Positions 11,650 through 19,599 of a DNA stretch of 64,000 nt are shown here, in pieces. Within the stretch, counting starts at the first letter, position 1. Each line of letters opens with the position of its first letter. The notes below the pieces were generated by a model, which worked only from the letters and a program-made list of their open reading frames with translations, searched no databases and had not been told where the DNA came from. Both the position numbers and the translations under genes were made by a program. This stretch comes from Anaerobacillus alkalilacustris (lineage in GTDB: Bacteria > Bacillota > Bacilli > Bacillales > Anaerobacillaceae), in contig NZ_MLQR01000031.1 in NCBI RefSeq assembly GCF_001866005.1, positions 1 through 64,000 on the forward strand, written 5' to 3'.

Positions 11650-12075
11650 GTGAAAAAATACTTATTATTAACTATTCTTTTTACTACACTATTTAGTCAT
11701 TCAGCATCTGCTATCTCGCCAGAATTTCTAGAAGAAAAGTATCTACCTAAATTTGAGGATATTGAAAGAAGAGCGATATTACAATTGAATTCATTAATTG
11801 ATGAAGCCTATGTAGAGTATCATAATAAGAAAGAAAAAGGAGAAATAACGCTACCACTATTGTTCAACTATATAGAGCGAGGCAAAAAGTTAGAGGATGA
11901 TGTGGAAATTGAATTTCAATCACTGCTTACACAAGTGAAAGCAGAAATAAAAGCCAATGATTTACCAGAAGAATTAACTTACCCTTATGAGAAATACTAT
12001 ATCAAATCCAAACGAAATAACAAACTAAAAATTTTGAAAAATATTACATTAGAAGGTCATAAAATTACTTTTTAG
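11650..12075 (+). CDS. Small secreted hypothetical protein
   Basis: 141 residues, GTG start with GAAGGTGAT upstream. A clear Sec signal peptide KKYLLLTILFTTLFSHSASA ends in an A-S-A cleavage site at about residue 21. The mature part is helical and acidic with alternating charges (EEKYLPKFEDIERRAI, then YIERGKKLEDDVEIEFQSL). No family recognised. It is divergent from the GGDEF-EAL gene and convergent with the NrfD operon, with a bidirectional terminator between. A link to the respiratory cluster is possible only by position. Confidence 0.65.
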   Translation: MKKYLLLTILFTTLFSHSASAISPEFLEEKYLPKFEDIERRAILQLNSLIDEAYVEYHNKKEKGEITLPLLFNYIERGKKLEDDVEIEFQSLLTQVKAEIKANDLPEELTYPYEKYYIKSKRNNKLKILKNITLEGHKITF

Positions 12076-12224: not shown

Positions 12225-13403
12225 TCAATGAGCTTTGTGATATTTATTTACTAACTTTATTCCTAAGAAATACCCTATAAATATCATACTAAGAGCACCG
12301 ATCACCATACTATACTCAACGAATGTTGGTGTGTAGCTTAACAACGTAACGGGAGCGTTTACTTCTGGTTTTAGCGATACGATTTGCCCTGCCGTTATGA
12401 GATTATGACGTGCAAATGCCATTCCAACTAATACCATTACACCGGCAGCCATTAAACTCCGAGGATCTTTTACTGTTAGTACAATCAACAATGGTAGTAG
12501 AAGACCAAATCCAAGTTCAAACACCCAAAAACTTATACTTAAACTACCTGTTAGCAAATACATTGTAGCTTCGTATCTTTCAGGAGATTGCCCAATCAAA
12601 CCACTGAGTATATTCCAAATAGTTAAAATAAGAACAACGATTATAAACAATACTAATAATTTACTTAAATACGGAACGAGCTGTTCTCTAGTTCTCTCAC
12701 TTGTGAAATAAAACAATATGAGTAATGCGGCTGCCCCAGTTAATAATGCCGTAAATATAAACAATATAGGTAAATAAGGTGAAGTCCAGAAAGCTCTCCC
12801 TGGCATCGTACCGAAAACTGCGCCTAAATTACTAGTTGCAGCTAATCCAGTAGTAATTGCTAGTACTGCGAATACTTTTACTATCTTTTCTTTATTTCTC
12901 ATATGAAAAAAAACTTCAGCGATTAAAAACACTAAGTAAATTCCATATAAGTAACCCATCCAAATAAACGCTGATTGGAAATTCGGTGATAATACGGCAT
13001 AAATTGCCAAGTTAAGAGGATACTTAAGCTCTAGTGCAAGAACAAGAAAGGCTGTAGACAAAAATGTAATAGCCAAAATGATCGGCTTTATTCCCATATC
13101 TTCAAATTCTTTTGTGTTTGTAAACTTTGTGTCTCCAAAAACAAGACGGAGGATCCATACTCGGTGTCCTAATGTTGATAAGAGACATAACCCTGTACAT
13201 CCAACAGCAAAGTATACATACGCAGAGATTAATAATCCCCATAATACTTCCTCGGTTGTACCCCATGCATGATGACCTTTAGCGAGCGTTACTATCGCAC
13301 CATAAATAAATAAAGCAAGTAAAACACCCGTAATCACTAGTAAAGGAGTACTACTTTTAGGACTTTTAGGTAGTTCTGACTTTTGTTGAACAATTTCAGT
13401 CAT
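12225..13403 (-). CDS. NrfD/PsrC-family quinone-reactive membrane subunit
   Basis: 392 residues with about ten transmembrane helices spread from residue 20 to the C-terminus. The pattern fits the NrfD/PsrC/ActC superfamily, integral subunits that exchange electrons with menaquinol and carry no metal centre of their own in well-studied cases. It follows the four-cluster ferredoxin gene by 14 bases, the usual pairing in Nrf, Psr, Mcc and Hme modules, and so should form the membrane foot of the complex. Last gene of the operon, closed by a terminator. The family is clear, while the direction of electron flow (quinol oxidation to an external acceptor) is inferred. Confidence 0.88.
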   Translation of the reverse strand: MTEIVQQKSELPKSPKSSTPLLVITGVLLALFIYGAIVTLAKGHHAWGTTEEVLWGLLISAYVYFAVGCTGLCLLSTLGHRVWILRLVFGDTKFTNTKEFEDMGIKPIILAITFLSTAFLVLALELKYPLNLAIYAVLSPNFQSAFIWMGYLYGIYLVFLIAEVFFHMRNKEKIVKVFAVLAITTGLAATSNLGAVFGTMPGRAFWTSPYLPILFIFTALLTGAAALLILFYFTSERTREQLVPYLSKLLVLFIIVVLILTIWNILSGLIGQSPERYEATMYLLTGSLSISFWVFELGFGLLLPLLIVLTVKDPRSLMAAGVMVLVGMAFARHNLITAGQIVSLKPEVNAPVTLLSYTPTFVEYSMVIGALSMIFIGYFLGIKLVNKYHKAH

Positions 13404-13417
13404 CTTTCGTTCCTCCT

Positions 13418-14095
13418 TTACTTATGTCTCACATAATAAATTTTCGGTTTCGTTCCAAGTTCAGGCTTTAATGGCTCAAGTCGACGTTCAATAATATTTT
13501 TACTAATCTGACTATTTACGTCATTTAAATCTCCAAAAATACGTGCCTCTCGAGGACATGCTGTTACGCACGCCGGATCCTTACCAGCCTGTACGAACCC
13601 ATCACAGAAATTACATTTTTCAGGAGTTCCGAACTTTTCACTCCAAATTCTTGCGTTATAAGGACAAGCAGTGATACACCCTTTACAGCCAATGCACTTC
13701 TTAGCATTCATAACCATGATACCCTGATCATTTAAATATGTTGCTCCAGTCGGACAGATTCTAGCACATGGGGCATTCTCACAATGATTGCATTGTGTAG
13801 TAATATTCTCTACAATGATATTAGGATACGTTCCTCGTTCGTATTCCTTATAGAGTTTAATAAAATACTCACCTTCTGGCAGCTCATGTCTAGTAGCACA
13901 AGCTTCCTGACATAGACCACAGCCAATACATTTCGTATTGTCAATGATCATACCAAATTTAACTTTTACGGTATTTCCATTAGATGCTGTTACTAAACTA
14001 GTAAGTGATAATAACCCACTTGAAAGTATTGCTGCCCCAGAACATAAGGTTGCAGTCTTCTTTAAAAAAGCGCGACGTGAAACCTTTGTTTTCAT
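13418..14095 (-). CDS. Tat-exported ferredoxin with four [4Fe-4S] sites (NrfC/PsrB-like)
   Basis: 225 residues. The N-terminus VSRRAFLKK plus a hydrophobic stretch is a twin-arginine signal, so the folded protein is exported. Sixteen cysteines form four cluster motifs: CIGCGLCQEAC (56-66), CNHCENAPCARIC (102-114), CIGCKGCITAC (134-144) and CNFC...CVTAC (161-180). This is the standard layout of NrfC, PsrB and DmsB electron-transfer subunits. It should pass electrons between the NrfD-type subunit and the hexaheme cytochrome. It lies between those two genes in one operon. The gene does not itself identify the substrate. Confidence 0.9.
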   Translation of the reverse strand: MKTKVSRRAFLKKTATLCSGAAILSSGLLSLTSLVTASNGNTVKVKFGMIIDNTKCIGCGLCQEACATRHELPEGEYFIKLYKEYERGTYPNIIVENITTQCNHCENAPCARICPTGATYLNDQGIMVMNAKKCIGCKGCITACPYNARIWSEKFGTPEKCNFCDGFVQAGKDPACVTACPREARIFGDLNDVNSQISKNIIERRLEPLKPELGTKPKIYYVRHK

Positions 14096-14143
14096 CGTTT
14101 CCCCTCCTTTTTATTTTTCTTATAACAACAAAACTTTTATTTT

Positions 14144-14175
14144 AATAGGGTACTAAATATGATTAGTACCCTATT
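14144..14175 (-). other. Intercistronic hairpin between cytochrome and ferredoxin genes
   Basis: Perfect 12-base arms AATAGGGTACTA and complement around an 8-base loop. On the transcript it follows the cytochrome stop codon and lacks a U tract. It may therefore protect the 3' end of a cytochrome-only mRNA or act as a partial terminator, giving more cytochrome than membrane subunit. Confidence 0.6.
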
Positions 14176-14195
14176 GTGTTAATCAATATATAAAG

Positions 14196-15713
14196 CTACT
14201 GATTCCAAGGTTCAGCCCCAACAGATACTCTTTGACCTTTCTCTCTATATAGATCTTTTTCCCATGGCCAAATTGGTAGCCAATCCTCTTTTAGTGAAGC
14301 ATCACCATCAAGCTTTAGTGCCCAAATATATTGATCTGGGGACAACCCAAAACTTCTGCCTTCCTCGTCAATATTAAAGATGTGCTGTTTGTTTGGCACA
14401 CGGCCACCTTCATTTTTCCAGTTTCCGAATCCGTAACTATCCCAACCAGTTCTACCATCTAGAGCTTTCATCATTTCTTCAGACTCTAGTCCATGACATG
14501 TGAGACAATTAGCTATAGGTGTATCACCAAAAGTTCGTAAGTTATCTGGGTTATTTCCTACATTATGAGCATCATGACAATCAAAACAAGTCATAGATCC
14601 GTGGATCGTTTCTCCACCTTTAATATGATCTTGCAGGCGAATGTCCATGTCTTGTTGGTGGTCACGGCGACCTTTACCATCAATAGAAACTTGACGATTA
14701 CCCTCACCCCATGCTGGCCGCGTATATTGAATAATATTCAAATAGTCATTAAAATCATGAACACCTAACTGGAATCCACGGAAATCATTTGAACCATTTC
14801 CATACATAAGATTTGTTTGGTTTCGTGTATGACATTGTTCACAGACAAGTTTACGCGTATCAACATCACCATCCATTGTTACTGGGTTAATGATTGTACC
14901 TTCACGTAACGGATAATATACGTGCTCTAAGCCTGGGCCGTGACAGGATTCGCAACTTACACGTGTATCTACAGTAAAAGTTTCTCTTAAATCCTCGCGT
15001 TCTCCGTTAATATATTCCTCTTTTGCTTCTTCCCAAGCATCTGGATCGAATCCAGTAGTATGACAAGCGATACACTGTTCTTGCCATGAACGCCATGTTC
15101 CGTAAGTTTTAATTTCTTGTTTCGGAGTTAATTCTAGAAATAAGAAATTATATCCAGCCCGTTCTTTATTACCTTCAAAATGAACCTTTTCGGACTTATC
15201 CAAATTCCAACTAATTCCACCATCTTCAGTAGTTGCTAAGTAAGCTTCTTGCGGTGATCCATCGTAATAAACCATATATCGTTGCTTTCTAACACTACCT
15301 ACTACATAATCAACTTCAGCTAATTCATATTTCTTTGTGCTTAAATAAATGGTATTGCTGTCTTTTTGGTCAAGAATTAAATATGAATCCATTTGTTCCC
15401 ACTGATCAAAAACCCAATCCCAAACATACTCGTAAGACCCAAGATTTGGCCCTTCCGTCGTTTTAGCTGTGTGCCAAGAAGTTTCCCATTTTTCGTATTT
15501 TTCTTCATGGCAATCCATGCATCTTTCAGGTCCAACAAACTTATCATAATAAGAACCATAGGTTATAAGGTCTACTACTTCTTCGCTTGGCTCTGTAGGA
15601 AATGTCGGTTGTACCGGTTGACCACCAACAGATGTATTGGTTTGACAGCCTGTAGCAATTGCTACCAAAAATAATAAAACAATTGATATAACCAATAACC
15701 GTAATTTCTTCAT
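14196..15713 (-). CDS. Hexaheme c-type cytochrome lipoprotein
   Basis: 505 residues. A signal peptide ends in the lipobox IATGC, giving a lipidated Cys23 and anchoring on the outer face of the membrane. There are six CXXCH heme sites, at cysteines 65, 214, 254, 291, 376 and 403, the first in a GPERCMDCHEEKYEKWETSWH context typical of the cytochrome c554 family. A long beta-rich insert (about 100-205) separates hemes 1 and 2. There is no CXXCK and no long CX(n)CH motif, so it is neither a canonical NrfA nitrite reductase nor a canonical MccA sulfite reductase. First gene of the operon with the ferredoxin and NrfD genes. It is either the terminal reductase itself or the electron outlet; no molybdopterin subunit is encoded nearby. 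Confidence 0.88.
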   Translation of the reverse strand: MKKLRLLVISIVLLFLVAIATGCQTNTSVGGQPVQPTFPTEPSEEVVDLITYGSYYDKFVGPERCMDCHEEKYEKWETSWHTAKTTEGPNLGSYEYVWDWVFDQWEQMDSYLILDQKDSNTIYLSTKKYELAEVDYVVGSVRKQRYMVYYDGSPQEAYLATTEDGGISWNLDKSEKVHFEGNKERAGYNFLFLELTPKQEIKTYGTWRSWQEQCIACHTTGFDPDAWEEAKEEYINGEREDLRETFTVDTRVSCESCHGPGLEHVYYPLREGTIINPVTMDGDVDTRKLVCEQCHTRNQTNLMYGNGSNDFRGFQLGVHDFNDYLNIIQYTRPAWGEGNRQVSIDGKGRRDHQQDMDIRLQDHIKGGETIHGSMTCFDCHDAHNVGNNPDNLRTFGDTPIANCLTCHGLESEEMMKALDGRTGWDSYGFGNWKNEGGRVPNKQHIFNIDEEGRSFGLSPDQYIWALKLDGDASLKEDWLPIWPWEKDLYREKGQRVSVGAEPWNQ

Positions 15714-15859
15714 TCCTTCCCCTCCCTTTAATGAATTAAATGATTGAAAATTATTGACCTACTGTTTTTCTTAGTAAGTCCTTGTTCATATTTTCACATA
15801 TTATTACATAATCTGTTATCAGTGAAAGCCACCTTTTTACTTAGTCTAATCCCTGAATG

Positions 15860-15912
15860 ATTTTAACAAAACCTCTACTTATACCCTACAACAATCGGGG
15901 TTTTCCCCTACA
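15860..15912 (-). promoter_or_regulatory. Candidate activator sites and promoter of the cytochrome operon
   Basis: Two identical direct repeats TGTAGGG on the minus strand (15912-15906 and 15890-15884) lie exactly 22 bases apart, two helical turns, flanking a GGGGAAAACCCC palindrome. Eighteen bases after the proximal repeat is TAAAAT (15865-15860), a possible -10; no good -35 is present because the repeat occupies that place. This is the geometry of an activator-dependent promoter. The NarL-type regulator encoded next door is the obvious candidate. Inference only. Confidence 0.5.
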
Positions 15913-15948
15913 GACATTTCAAAGCGATAACTCTTAATAAATAAAAAA

Positions 15949-15984
15949 GATTAAAAGTCAGGAGAAGTCCCCTGACTTTTAATC
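15949..15984 (-). terminator. Terminator of the sensor operon
   Basis: GATTAAAAGTCAGG and complement (14-base arms) followed by T6 on the minus strand. The regulator stop codon lies inside the arm. It insulates the sensor operon from the cytochrome operon. Confidence 0.85.
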
Positions 15985-16632
15985 ATGAATAGAAATTAGA
16001 CCTTGCGCTACTGCATAGCGGACCAGTTCTGATCGTTTCTTTAAATTTAATTTTTCCGATATCCTGGCTTTATGTGTTTCAACAGTTTTGACACTAACAT
16101 ATAATTGATCAGCTATTTCTTGATACGTAAATCCTAAAGCAACGTACTTTAATACTTGTTTTTCTCTCTTACTTAAAGGAGATTTCTTTGAATGATCTTC
16201 ATTCTGCTCCCCAAAAAAACCCTTTAATAGAAAGCTTGATAAAGTAGGATAAATGTAAGTTTCTCCTTGAAGTACAGTTCTTACAGCAGAAATCAATTCT
16301 GTATCAACTGCTTTTTTCAGTACATAGCCAGAAGCACCGGCCTTTAAAGCTTTCTTAAAATAATCCTCTTCAGAATACATGGTTAACATTAATATTTTCA
16401 CTTTTGGGTGTGATAATTTAATTTGTTTTGTTGCTTCTATTCCACCAATTCCAGGCATCGAAATATCCATCAGTATCAAATCTGGGTTCCAAACGAAGAC
16501 CTTTTCTACAGCTTCTTCACCACTTGAAACAGTACCTATTATCTCCCACTCGTTTATCTTTGACAGTAATAGCTCTATCCCAGATAATAAAACCCCATGA
16601 TCATCAACTAGCATTATTTTCGGCTTCGCCAC
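15979..16632 (-). CDS. NarL/LuxR-family response regulator
   Basis: About 217 residues. Receiver domain with the acidic pair VDD, phospho-acceptor aspartate in LILMDIS, threonine/serine in LTMYS and lysine in VLKKAVD. The C-terminal LuxR helix-turn-helix begins LSKREKQVLKYVALG and contains VSVKTVETHKARI. I favour the GTG at 16632 because GGAG lies nine bases upstream; in-frame ATG 16641 and TTG 16647 overlap that site. The start overlaps the end of the kinase gene, so the two are translationally coupled. Likely target: the cytochrome operon immediately downstream. Confidence 0.9.
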   Translation of the reverse strand: MAKPKIMLVDDHGVLLSGIELLLSKINEWEIIGTVSSGEEAVEKVFVWNPDLILMDISMPGIGGIEATKQIKLSHPKVKILMLTMYSEEDYFKKALKAGASGYVLKKAVDTELISAVRTVLQGETYIYPTLSSFLLKGFFGEQNEDHSKKSPLSKREKQVLKYVALGFTYQEIADQLYVSVKTVETHKARISEKLNLKKRSELVRYAVAQGLISIHD

Positions 16633-18490
16633 CCGTTTCATCTCCAATCATGATATCTTTCATGTATACTGTAGTGCCTATACCAGTGTTCGATTCAATC
16701 ACTAGTTTCCCACCTATTGACTCTATTCTTTCCTGCATTCCTTTGAGTCCTAAATGATTCTTTGTTAATTTACCATTTAAGGTTTTATTTACGTCAAATC
16801 CTTCTCCATCATCTTCAATGATAACTGAAACTACTCCATTTACATGCTTTAAAATAATACTAATATTATCAGAATTTGCATGTCGGGCTGCATTTGTTAA
16901 CGCTTCTTGAATAACACGATATATCGTAACTTCATATATAGAAGAAAGTCGCACTTGTTTAAATCCAATTACTTGAATGTCAACATCAATTGTGAATTTT
17001 TTCATATATTCAATGACGTACTTTTTAATCGCTGGCATTAATCCTAAGTCATCAAGAACACTCGGCCTTAATGACCATGAAAGATAATGAACTTCATCGA
17101 GTGTTCGTTGGGAAACCTCTTTAAGGTCAATAATCTCTTGTTGCATCGAAGATGGTATATCATACTCCTCCAAAAGAGTTAATCCAACTATAATAGAAGT
17201 TATCGATTGACTCGTTTCATCATGTAATTCACGAGCAATCCGTTTTCTTTCCTCCTCTTGAGCAGTAAGTACTCGATCCAAAAGCTTCAATCGCAGTTCT
17301 TCTTTATATTTTATTTCCTTCCAAAGTTCAGCATTTTCAGCAATGACAGTAAGCTGCCTAGCAAAAGAGGTCAAAAATTTTACTGTTGTATCATCTGGAT
17401 CATTTTCAAAACAGCCTAAAATCTGACCAATTTTTTTCCCCTTTGTTTTAAAAGGAATGAAGAAATGCTTAGAATCTAAGACTAGTTTTTCTTCAAAACT
17501 AGTACAATTTGTACACCATTTACTACCTTTATACGTAGAAAGACTTTCCCCGCCAAGTAAGATTTCAATGAAACAACTATTTAATCCAAGCTCCTCAATT
17601 AAACGTTCTGCTGTACTCTCTAGAAGTTTTTCAAAATGGGCAATATCCGTCGATCCAACAGCAAGTTGGTGTAGTAAGGAAAGTTCATTATTTCTCATTT
17701 TTAATACTTTTGTAAAACGATTATTTTCTTCATTTTTATCATTTAAACGTTCGATCATTGTATTAATTTCTTTAGCAAGCATCCCTATTTCATCTTTACA
17801 TTCTATATCTACTTTACAATCCAAATTTCCTTTTCCTACTTGTTGTGTTGTATGCATTAGTTGTGTTAAATCACGATACATATATTTCGTTAATATGAAT
17901 GCAATAACAAATCCAAGCCCTCCAATAATAATGGTAGCCATAACAAGCAAAAATGTAATTTCGTCAATGGTGTTGTAAATTTGTTTTTCATTTAATCCTA
18001 CTCTTACAAACCCAGCATCGCCAGAAAAAATAGGAGCAATCACATCGTGAATTTTTCCCGTTTCTGATTCAAATACAACTAACTGCGTATTTGTAATATC
18101 ACCATTTGTATCTATCATATTTACATTTAAGAGTTCGTCAGACACTTCAAAATTAGAACCAAAAGTATGGATGATCATCTCAAAATTTTGATCGACAATA
18201 AAGATATATTCGATGTCTGGATTATTGCTCATTGTATCTTGTAATAAAGTATGAAAACTATAAATATCTCTTAAAATTATATGATCAATACTTCTGGAAC
18301 TAACATCACTAGCTATAGAAATAGCTCGGCGATCAAGGTCTTCGCTAAGTTTCACAACCAAAATTTCCCTAAGTATGATTGTACTTGTCAATCCCATTAA
18401 TATAACTAACCCAATCGTAATACCAAGAATTTTTGTTTTTACACTTTTATTTTTTAAACTAGTAATAATAAATTGTACTGTTTTCTTCAT
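16604..18490 (-). CDS. NarX/DegS-type sensor histidine kinase with HAMP and GAF domains
   Basis: 628 residues: transmembrane helix at about 21-43, extracytoplasmic Cache-like domain (about 44-177), second helix (178-201), HAMP (201-255), GAF-like domain (about 270-390), HisKA_3 dimerisation helix with EEERKRIARELHDE (phospho-acceptor His423), and an ATPase domain with N533, DDGEGF and GLKGM. The GAF-like region holds WCTNC and other cysteines, so redox or metal sensing inside the cell is conceivable. The start overlaps the end of the binding-lipoprotein gene by four bases (ATGA) and the 3' end overlaps the regulator, making a three-gene coupled sensory unit. Confidence 0.92.
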   Translation of the reverse strand: MKKTVQFIITSLKNKSVKTKILGITIGLVILMGLTSTIILREILVVKLSEDLDRRAISIASDVSSRSIDHIILRDIYSFHTLLQDTMSNNPDIEYIFIVDQNFEMIIHTFGSNFEVSDELLNVNMIDTNGDITNTQLVVFESETGKIHDVIAPIFSGDAGFVRVGLNEKQIYNTIDEITFLLVMATIIIGGLGFVIAFILTKYMYRDLTQLMHTTQQVGKGNLDCKVDIECKDEIGMLAKEINTMIERLNDKNEENNRFTKVLKMRNNELSLLHQLAVGSTDIAHFEKLLESTAERLIEELGLNSCFIEILLGGESLSTYKGSKWCTNCTSFEEKLVLDSKHFFIPFKTKGKKIGQILGCFENDPDDTTVKFLTSFARQLTVIAENAELWKEIKYKEELRLKLLDRVLTAQEEERKRIARELHDETSQSITSIIVGLTLLEEYDIPSSMQQEIIDLKEVSQRTLDEVHYLSWSLRPSVLDDLGLMPAIKKYVIEYMKKFTIDVDIQVIGFKQVRLSSIYEVTIYRVIQEALTNAARHANSDNISIILKHVNGVVSVIIEDDGEGFDVNKTLNGKLTKNHLGLKGMQERIESIGGKLVIESNTGIGTTVYMKDIMIGDETGGEAENNAS

Positions 18491-19422
18491 TTTAAGTTCT
18501 CAATTTCTTCGAGGATTTGAGTAATCGGCTCATATAATTCTTTTTCAGGTAAATCAAAATAATCATAGCTTAATTTATTTAAAGCAACTTTCCCTTTTTC
18601 ATTTAGGTGCATGTTTAGTACAACATCTGTTAACTGTTTTATTAATTCATTATCGATATTGGGATTAACCACGATTGGTGATTGGCCAACATGTTCACCT
18701 TCGCCAATAATGATTAGATTATCAACGATTGGGTTATTTCCCCTCTTTAACTTTTCAAATATTGAACTATGTGTTGCTCCTGCATCTACCAAACCATTTG
18801 CTACTGCAATTATGGTATTATCATGACTATAAGTGAAATAAGTGTTTGAAAAGTAAGTATTAAAATCATTCGCACCTTTCATAATGTCGTATTTTGTTAC
18901 AAGGTATCCGGAATATGACAGGGGGTCGGAAAAAGCAAAGCTTTTATTGTAAAGGTCCTCTAGAGAGTTTATTTCACTATTTTTTTGAGTAATGATATAG
19001 GAAGTAAACTTTTTTTCACCATTTATTACTGGCATGGCAATCTTTTCTAAAATCTCATCCCGACTACCAATAACAGCTAAATAAGAACAGACAATACCTG
19101 CATCAATTTCATTTCTTTCAAAAAGTTCTTTCATCTCTGAGTACGTTTGCTTTTGTATGATTTCAATAGGTCGACCTAATTGTTCCTCTAAGTATTTCTT
19201 GAATTTATAATATAAGCGATGTGTTTCTCTGATAGACATAATAGATACTATACCAAACCTTATTGGCTCTTCTTCGAGACTACCTGCACTTACGGACCTA
19301 TCTGAAATTGGTGTATTTGTTAATTCAACAAACGTTTTGCTTTCATTCAGTGAGCAAGCAGTCATTAAAATGACGATAATAATTTTAGTAAGCGAGAAAA
19401 ATACTACTCTCAGAGTATTCAT
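18487..19422 (-). CDS. PhnD-like periplasmic-binding lipoprotein, probable sensor partner
   Basis: 311 residues. The lipobox LMTAC gives a lipidated Cys23. The mature domain reads IRFGIVSIMSIRETHRLYYK, then FERNEIDAGIVCSYLAVIG, FAFSDPLSYSGYL and VANGLVDAGATHSSIFE, the course of the PhnD/phosphonate-binding-protein family (type II periplasmic fold). No ABC permease or ATPase is nearby. Instead it is coupled by a four-base overlap to a histidine kinase, as AioX/ArxX arsenite sensors and the PhnD-like domain of the tetrathionate kinase TtrS accompany their kinases. It probably binds an oxyanion and presents it to the kinase. The ligand is unknown. Confidence 0.85.
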   Translation of the reverse strand: MNTLRVVFFSLTKIIIVILMTACSLNESKTFVELTNTPISDRSVSAGSLEEEPIRFGIVSIMSIRETHRLYYKFKKYLEEQLGRPIEIIQKQTYSEMKELFERNEIDAGIVCSYLAVIGSRDEILEKIAMPVINGEKKFTSYIITQKNSEINSLEDLYNKSFAFSDPLSYSGYLVTKYDIMKGANDFNTYFSNTYFTYSHDNTIIAVANGLVDAGATHSSIFEKLKRGNNPIVDNLIIIGEGEHVGQSPIVVNPNIDNELIKQLTDVVLNMHLNEKGKVALNKLSYDYFDLPEKELYEPITQILEEIENLK

Positions 19423-19559: not shown

Positions 19560-19591
19560 AAAGGTGCCCTAAAATAATATTTAGGGCACCT
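19560..19591 (-). terminator. Terminator of thrS
   Basis: Perfect 13-base arms AAGGTGCCCTAAA and complement around ATAATA, followed on the minus strand by a T-rich stretch. Confidence 0.8.
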
Positions 19592-19599
19592 TAGTTTCT

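Follow-up and report, generated by a model that had tools for sequence, protein, structure and literature searches.

A hexaheme lipoprotein cassette with an ArrX/AioX-type sensor in Anaerobacillus alkalilacustris, a candidate system for oxyanion respiration

Which electron acceptor might be served by a respiratory cassette that combines a hexaheme lipoprotein, a Tat (twin-arginine translocation)-exported iron-sulfur (FeS) protein and an NrfD-type membrane protein with a sensor of its own is the question raised by positions 12225-19422 of a 64,000-nucleotide stretch of Anaerobacillus alkalilacustris DNA (RefSeq assembly GCF_001866005.1, contig NZ_MLQR01000031.1, positions 1 to 64,000; the window). 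Its six genes, all open and complete on the minus strand, are in order of transcription a PhnD-like lipoprotein, a histidine kinase, a response regulator and, after a terminator and a 265-bp gap, the hexaheme lipoprotein HexA, the FeS protein and NrfD (Table 1). The terminator, 3' of the regulator gene, divides them into the two adjacent operons that a first-pass annotation of the sequence had described, and the overlapping reading frames it noticed amount to 4 bp between lipoprotein and kinase and 44 bp between kinase and regulator, the latter with a start called at TTG and an in-frame ATG two codons further downstream. By domain search no Mo-bisPGD (molybdenum-bis(pyranopterin guanine dinucleotide)) catalytic subunit is encoded among the cassette genes, and none of the cassette proteins reaches a reductase cut-off of NCBIfam; a molybdenum (Mo) subunit, a CXXCK motif and an octaheme protein are all missing from the cassette, as had been stated.

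The answer which on balance we consider probable is a menaquinol:oxyanion reductase at the cell surface that is induced by its own substrate, perhaps selenite or sulfite. NrfD would draw electrons from menaquinol and the FeS protein would hand them to HexA which, lipid-anchored outside the membrane, would reduce a soluble oxyanion at heme 2, predicted to be five-coordinate and to lie beside a conserved Asp351-His352 pair and conserved Arg/Lys residues. The same oxyanion would be bound by the extracellular ArrX-type lipoprotein, with the signal passing via the kinase to the regulator, whose target would be a palindrome that lies upstream of the cytochrome genes. The first-pass annotation had proposed a lipid-anchored quinol:acceptor complex switched on by an external oxyanion; what stands of it is a module that is lipid-anchored and quinol-linked and has an oxyanion-type sensor to itself, with an ArrR-like site before the effector genes; electron flow from quinol to an acceptor, the nature of this acceptor and assembly into one complex stay at the level of a proposal.

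HexA contains exactly six CXXCH motifs (C65, C214, C254, C291, C376, C403) and one further Cys, the lipobox Cys23. There is no CXXCK in its sequence, and no non-heme Cys is conserved across the HexA alignment, so that HexA lacks an MccA-like copper site. Among solved structures, a profile built from eight relatives matches OcwA of Thermincola (6i5b, 6.5e-10), Desulfovibrio vulgaris NrfA (6.8e-7) and MccA (4rkm, 1.8e-4); by this similarity, which spans the heme core, HexA belongs to the c554/OcwA/NrfA/MccA superfamily. HexA heme 2 (C214-H218) aligns with OcwA heme 2 and with the catalytic CXXCK heme of NrfA, and Asp351-His352 aligns with the His-His pair over the open heme 2 of OcwA (residues according to PMC6703420, under an assumed offset of 29 between chain and paper numbering). 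H81, H264, H371, H383 and H444 (KQH motif) are candidates for the five distal ligands, which would leave heme 2 open. H81, H264, H352, H371 and H383 are invariant in every complete hexA sequence; Asp351 is Gly in one relative (L074; L and G numbers denote loci and genomes, G000 being the window genome), and the sequence of another (L076) ends before this block. Many conserved Arg and Lys residues lie in the conserved block TRPAWGxGNRQVSxDGKGRRDHQQDMD.

On the quinol side, the FeS protein carries four 4-Cys motifs and the Tat signal SRRAFLKK, and NrfD has roughly 10 hydrophobic segments and scores 79.8 bits against PF03916 (curated cut-off 25.8), in agreement with the four-cluster ferredoxin and ten-helix protein first described. 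The nearest relatives in Bacillota, with up to 49% identity for the FeS protein and 34-40% for NrfD, are located in Mo-FeS-NrfD operons, and the Mo subunit was confirmed in one such locus (L119). The pair thus resembles the B/C subunits of Psr/Phs-type enzymes, with the Mo subunit replaced by a hexaheme protein; HexA appears to occupy the place of a Psr-like molybdoenzyme subunit. The claim that the cassette matches no standard enzyme holds for names, but HexA is recognisably of the OcwA/NrfA/MccA superfamily and the NrfC/NrfD pair most like the Psr/Phs-type subunits. Elsewhere in the same genome (L024 5707-8182, contig C1), a lone NrfD gene is accompanied by one for a rhodanese-domain lipoprotein and by two short reading frames, lacks a Mo or FeS subunit, and is possibly a decayed polysulfide-reductase-type operon.

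Among characterized systems, MccACD/SirACD of Wolinella and Shewanella likewise combine a multiheme cytochrome with an NrfC-type FeS protein and NrfD, and MccA shares a similar N-terminal heme motif with HexA. However, the Mcc/Sir sulfite reductase has eight hemes and a heme-copper site (copper according to PMC6703420) where HexA has six hemes and no conserved non-heme Cys, and MccD has been catalogued in Gamma- and Epsilonproteobacteria only (PMC8076601), in contrast to the Gram-positive host here. OcwA, like HexA Gram-positive and extracellular, aligns at heme 2 and the distal pair, but possesses nine hemes, a His-His instead of an Asp-His pair and a second open heme, and has been implicated in the use of solid acceptors (PMC6703420).

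With OcwA as the closest solved relative, HexA might be a surface terminal reductase of the OcwA kind for Fe(III), humics or flavins, engaged in extracellular electron transfer, with the sensor reporting a proxy only; this is unlikely, though to be taken seriously. In Desulfuromonadales (L005), the genes for a kinase, a regulator and HexA precede those for a ten-heme cytochrome and an MtrB porin (PF11854, 4.5e-116), a related sensor stands in two congeners beside a NapC-type cytochrome and ApbE with an FMN-binding lipoprotein nearby, and an exact palindrome of the kind discussed below occurs in a G005 locus with NusG_II and ApbE genes. On the other hand, HexA has six hemes only, together with the invariant basic, pocket-like block, and a dedicated sensor for a soluble oxyanion would be unusual for mineral respiration.

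NrfABCD provides the third comparison, sharing cytochrome, NrfC and NrfD with the cassette, and five of the six HexA hemes align with D. vulgaris NrfA. NrfA is a pentaheme protein whose catalytic heme is bound by CXXCK (rarely CXXCH) and has Arg, Tyr and His residues in its second sphere, whereas HexA has an extra N-terminal heme and neither CXXCK nor the Tyr after the third NrfA heme; NrfB is missing from the cassette, and the TIGR03149 and TIGR03148 scores stay under cut-off. That HexA is an NrfA-related reductase of nitrite, hydroxylamine or NO, respiratory or detoxifying, is suggested by the similarity, which puts heme 2 in register with the catalytic one, by the use of CXXCH in some NrfA (PMC12285233) and by the slow nitrite reduction of OcwA (PMC6703420). 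We nevertheless consider it improbable, as the Tyr is not conserved in the alignment, A. alkalilacustris is reported to be nitrate-negative, and ArrX and AioX bound only arsenic oxyanions (ArrX also phosphate) when tested with a set of compounds from which nitrite was missing (PMC5908839).

The sensor lipoprotein matches among solved binding proteins ArrX (6x6b, Table 1) and AioX (6esv, 1.7e-30), and more distantly PtxB (2.9e-16) and PhnD (1.1e-13), so that the PhnD-like sensor of oxyanion type first described is more specifically of the ArrX/AioX subfamily. The trio follows ArrXSR/AioXSR in its binding protein, kinase and LuxR-type regulator and in an operator like that of ArrR, but is linked to a cytochrome module instead of a Mo enzyme. 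TtrSR and ThsSR also control a nearby reductase through a PhnD-like sensing domain (PMC5408782), there fused to the kinase and not, as in the cassette, a separate lipoprotein. The NarL-type regulator is borne out by its domains; the kinase is of the NarX type at class level (HisKA_3) only, with NCBIfam NarX/NarQ scores of 90.7/98.9 bits far under cut-off.

The AioX-subfamily pocket consists of Tyr88, Cys106, Tyr131, Ser161, Ser163, His192 and Asp210, with Cys106 missing in PhnD (PMC5908839). In the window sensor the equivalents are Tyr94, Cys112, Phe139, Ser169, Ser171, His200 and His218, which means that five of the seven residues, Cys106 included, are kept and that Tyr131 is changed to Phe and Asp210 to His. 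All five sensors at this locus show the pocket YCFSSHH, as against YCYS[ST]HD in all five sensors beside Arr-like operons of the same genus; by the pocket residues, the sensor is a paralog within the ArrX/AioX subfamily and not an arsenic sensor. In phosphate-binding as compared with sulfate-binding proteins, a carboxylate takes up the phosphate proton, and the change of Asp210 to His should therefore favour a fully deprotonated oxyanion. The pocket changes suggest, by this analogy, that the lipoprotein binds neither arsenate nor arsenite but an oxyanion in a more fully deprotonated state, with selenite, sulfite or another sulfur or selenium oxyanion as a first guess, which fits an alkaliphile and the retained Cys.

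The simple reading as an arsenate regulator was rejected on two grounds, the altered pocket and G004, which possesses an Arr-like operon but lacks the cassette. An arsenic-linked module, with a second ArrXSR in charge of an accessory arsenate/arsenite system, is a shade less probable than the NrfA-like alternative: the sensor is of the ArrX family with Cys106 kept, and the same genome carries an Arr-like operon (ArrA model 1092.8 bits, cut-off 1600; ArrB 306, cut-off 450) with its own trio and an unchanged ArrX-type sensor, but two of the seven pocket positions set the cassette sensor apart from every Arr-linked one, arsenate reduction is normally performed by a Mo enzyme, and the cassette site of G004 is empty.

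Two further trios were observed. The one at the Arr-like operon (L023 5160-15135, contig C31, about 239160-249135) lies near cysH-sat and adjoins genes for a Mo enzyme, an FeS protein, a TorD-like protein, a second FeS protein and NrfD, an arrangement conserved in G002, G004 and G005 and altered in G003. A third trio in Anaerobacillus arseniciselenatis and a metagenome-assembled genome (MAG; L080 7560-12297 and L081 1647-6295), with a kinase 58% identical, adjoins a six-heme NapC-type protein and ApbE, with the FMN-binding lipoprotein nearby; its sensor has Tyr at the Asp210 position.

The cassette lies between thrS and an EAL-GGDEF gene near infC in five of the seven genomes of the genus (G000, G002, G003, G005, G006), and the site is empty in the other two, where G001 has nothing and G004 a small secreted protein only (L091, L092). 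That the cluster recurs at this site in four other species of the genus shows that it is more than chance, and the co-occurrence of sensor and respiratory genes, which the first-pass annotation had named as a check, extends to all five cassette-bearing genomes. While the kinases at this site are 67-71% identical, the effectors vary. Behind the sensor trio, the window genome has hexA, the FeS protein and NrfD, G002 and G003 have hexA and a 150-residue four-heme protein of the NapC/NrfH type (L018, L019; PF03264 1.4e-9, TIGR03153 the top model yet under cut-off), and G005 and G006 have hexB, which encodes another hexaheme lipoprotein, 26% identical (L020, L021); G006 has hexA at another locus, adjoining an unrelated kinase/regulator pair (L004). 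By gene content, the sensor stays the same while the electron-transfer parts can be exchanged, NrfCD being one of several electron inputs. As a side observation, ResB was not found in the window genome (assembly of 4,047,432 bases in 50 contigs, 90.9% complete), in contrast to all six congeners; Cytochrom_C_asm (CcmF/CcmC-like) proteins are present.

The presence in congeners of a NapC/NrfH-type quinol dehydrogenase in the place of NrfCD favours a flow from quinol to cytochrome and is the best evidence for that direction. The reverse, by which HexA would oxidise an external donor and feed menaquinone through NrfCD, has a precedent in NrfD complexes that reduce quinone (Qrc, Nhc; PMC8076601), but is quite improbable in view of this exchange and of Fnr-type sites upstream in several loci.

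The gap between regulator and effector genes contains a palindrome that follows TGTNRGGNNAANNCCYNA exactly or closely in G000, G002, G005, G006 and the third-paralog loci, and G003 has a near match. Across the genus (about 30 Mb) there are 20 exact matches, six of them inside these sensor clusters; three of the five matches examined outside the clusters lie within coding genes, so that the motif alone is not specific and its recurrence in the regulator-effector gaps is the evidence. The ArrR site proposed in Chrysiogenes is tcaggtttttccctga (PMC5908839), which the best sites in five hexA/hexB regions match at 12-14 of 16 bases, a level reached by 0-3% of shuffles. The palindrome of the G005 locus with NusG_II and ApbE genes, near-perfect and upstream of a lipoprotein (TCAGGGATTACCCTGACA; L096 3141-3158, contig C10), stands in surroundings reminiscent of flavin-based extracellular electron transfer loci. 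Fnr-type palindromes, as expected for anaerobic respiration, lie upstream of hexB (G005, G006), the NapC-type gene (G006) and hexA (G514), and a TGTGA-N6-TCACA site precedes the FeS-NrfD-hexA run of G449. That sensor and effector are neighbours by chance, as their separate transcription units with a terminator between them might suggest, is very improbable given their linkage throughout the cassette-bearing genomes with two cytochrome families and the operator-like sites in the gap.

Table 1. Features of the cassette and its borders in the window
Feature	Position	Strand	Evidence or remark
ArrX/AioX-subfamily (PhnD-like) lipoprotein sensor	18487..19422	-	PF12974 5.8e-53; ArrX 6x6b E 8.9e-46; pocket mapping
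Membrane sensor histidine kinase: two transmembrane segments around sCache, HAMP, HisKA_3 (His423), HATPase	16604..18490	-	Domain search
NarL/LuxR-type response regulator, phospho-acceptor Asp61 (TTG numbering)	15979..16647	-	Response_reg + GerE; motif positions
Intrinsic terminator between sensor and effector operons, 16 pairs, T-rich tail	15949..15984	-	
Operator-like palindrome TGTAGGGGAAAACCCCGA, ~195 bp upstream of cytochrome start	15895..15912	-	Resembles Chrysiogenes ArrR site (PMC5908839)
Hexaheme lipoprotein hexA, six CXXCH	14196..15713	-	Multiheme c domain; predicted catalytic heme 2 (C214-H218) with Asp351-His352
Tat-exported 4x[4Fe-4S] protein (NrfC/PsrB type)	13418..14095	-	Fer4 domains, Cys motifs, Tat signal
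NrfD/PsrC-type membrane quinol-binding subunit	12225..13403	-	PF03916 3.8e-22
Terminator-like hairpin, thrS/sensor-operon gap, 13 pairs, detected on both strands	19561..19592	.	5' boundary of cassette
Small secreted protein, no Pfam family	11650-12075	+	At site in most of genus, cassette present or not

Beyond the genus, HexA relatives of 44-53% identity occur in Desulfuromonadales, Desulfobulbaceae and Ramlibacter and Rubrivivax MAGs, and a few other Bacillota contain strong matches; no relative was found in the other genera when 150 genomes of close relatives were sampled, nor in a scan of viral contigs, and a scan of plasmids gave only distant multiheme proteins (22-25% identity). Most of the relatives outside the cassette site stand near a two-component gene (L004, L005, L009, L074, L076, L079), in two cases in the order kinase, regulator, hexB-type gene, hexA (L009, L076). 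In a further locus two complete hexA units are fused in a single 12-heme open frame (L008 1-3261), in another hexA is followed by an EB_dh protein (L006), and the distant Bacillota genome G449 carries FeS, NrfD and hexA genes in one run (L075). In that run (L075 9101-10276), a stop cuts the cytochrome short with four hemes left, likely a pseudogene or an assembly error. Literature searches found no paper that describes this cluster.

Several points weigh against a substrate-induced surface oxyanion reductase. The AlphaFold2 model of HexA (eight sequences), which has beta strands between hemes 1 and 2 as a possible likeness to MccA, is of low confidence (pLDDT 45.7, pTM 0.36) and leaves heme ligation on the alignment; hhalign of the HexA profile with Escherichia coli NrfA covers the last two hemes only, so that the mapping onto NrfA rests on the D. 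vulgaris profile match; and HexA could act as an electron conduit, not a catalyst. On the regulatory side, a reversed control pattern still yields four matches genus-wide, the seven regions compared for the palindrome are related and not independent tests, and the kinase gene of G002 is interrupted by an insertion element, whose two genes (L086 2097-4459) separate the gene start from the remainder, so that this sensor circuit may be broken. Finally, other genes of the genus are also candidates for selenite reduction (PMC11944866).

Reduction of selenate, selenite and arsenate has been tabulated for A. alkalilacustris (PMC11944866), a phenotype compatible with a selenium role of HexA and no demonstration of one. 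Anaerobacillus alkalidiazotrophicus, at 95.3% ANI (average nucleotide identity) to A. alkalilacustris, is by contrast reported as negative for selenium and arsenic. The cytochrome likely represents a hexaheme family that has been without a name so far. Tentatively, and as a possibility rather than an expectation, HexA might found a new family of oxyanion-reducing hexaheme cytochromes, perhaps the missing dedicated respiratory reductase for selenite (or sulfite) of alkaliphilic Anaerobacillus, which could be driven by NrfCD or a NapC/NrfH-type cytochrome or, in Gram-negatives, work beside an MtrAB-type conduit, and which would be run by an arsenate sensor re-tuned via two pocket changes to a different oxyanion.

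The sensor offers a handle on an orphan enzyme, as the ligand of the lipoprotein probably reveals the acceptor of HexA, which can now be sought directly, and the change of Asp210 to His provides a testable rule for arsenate sensors that gain a new oxyanion specificity. The locus also amounts to a natural experiment in modular respiration, as a single genus joins one sensor at one site to two cytochrome families and at least two quinol inputs. Should selenite be the acceptor, HexA would be a dedicated respiratory reductase for a step that in Anaerobacillus has until now been ascribed for the most part to general redox genes (PMC11944866).

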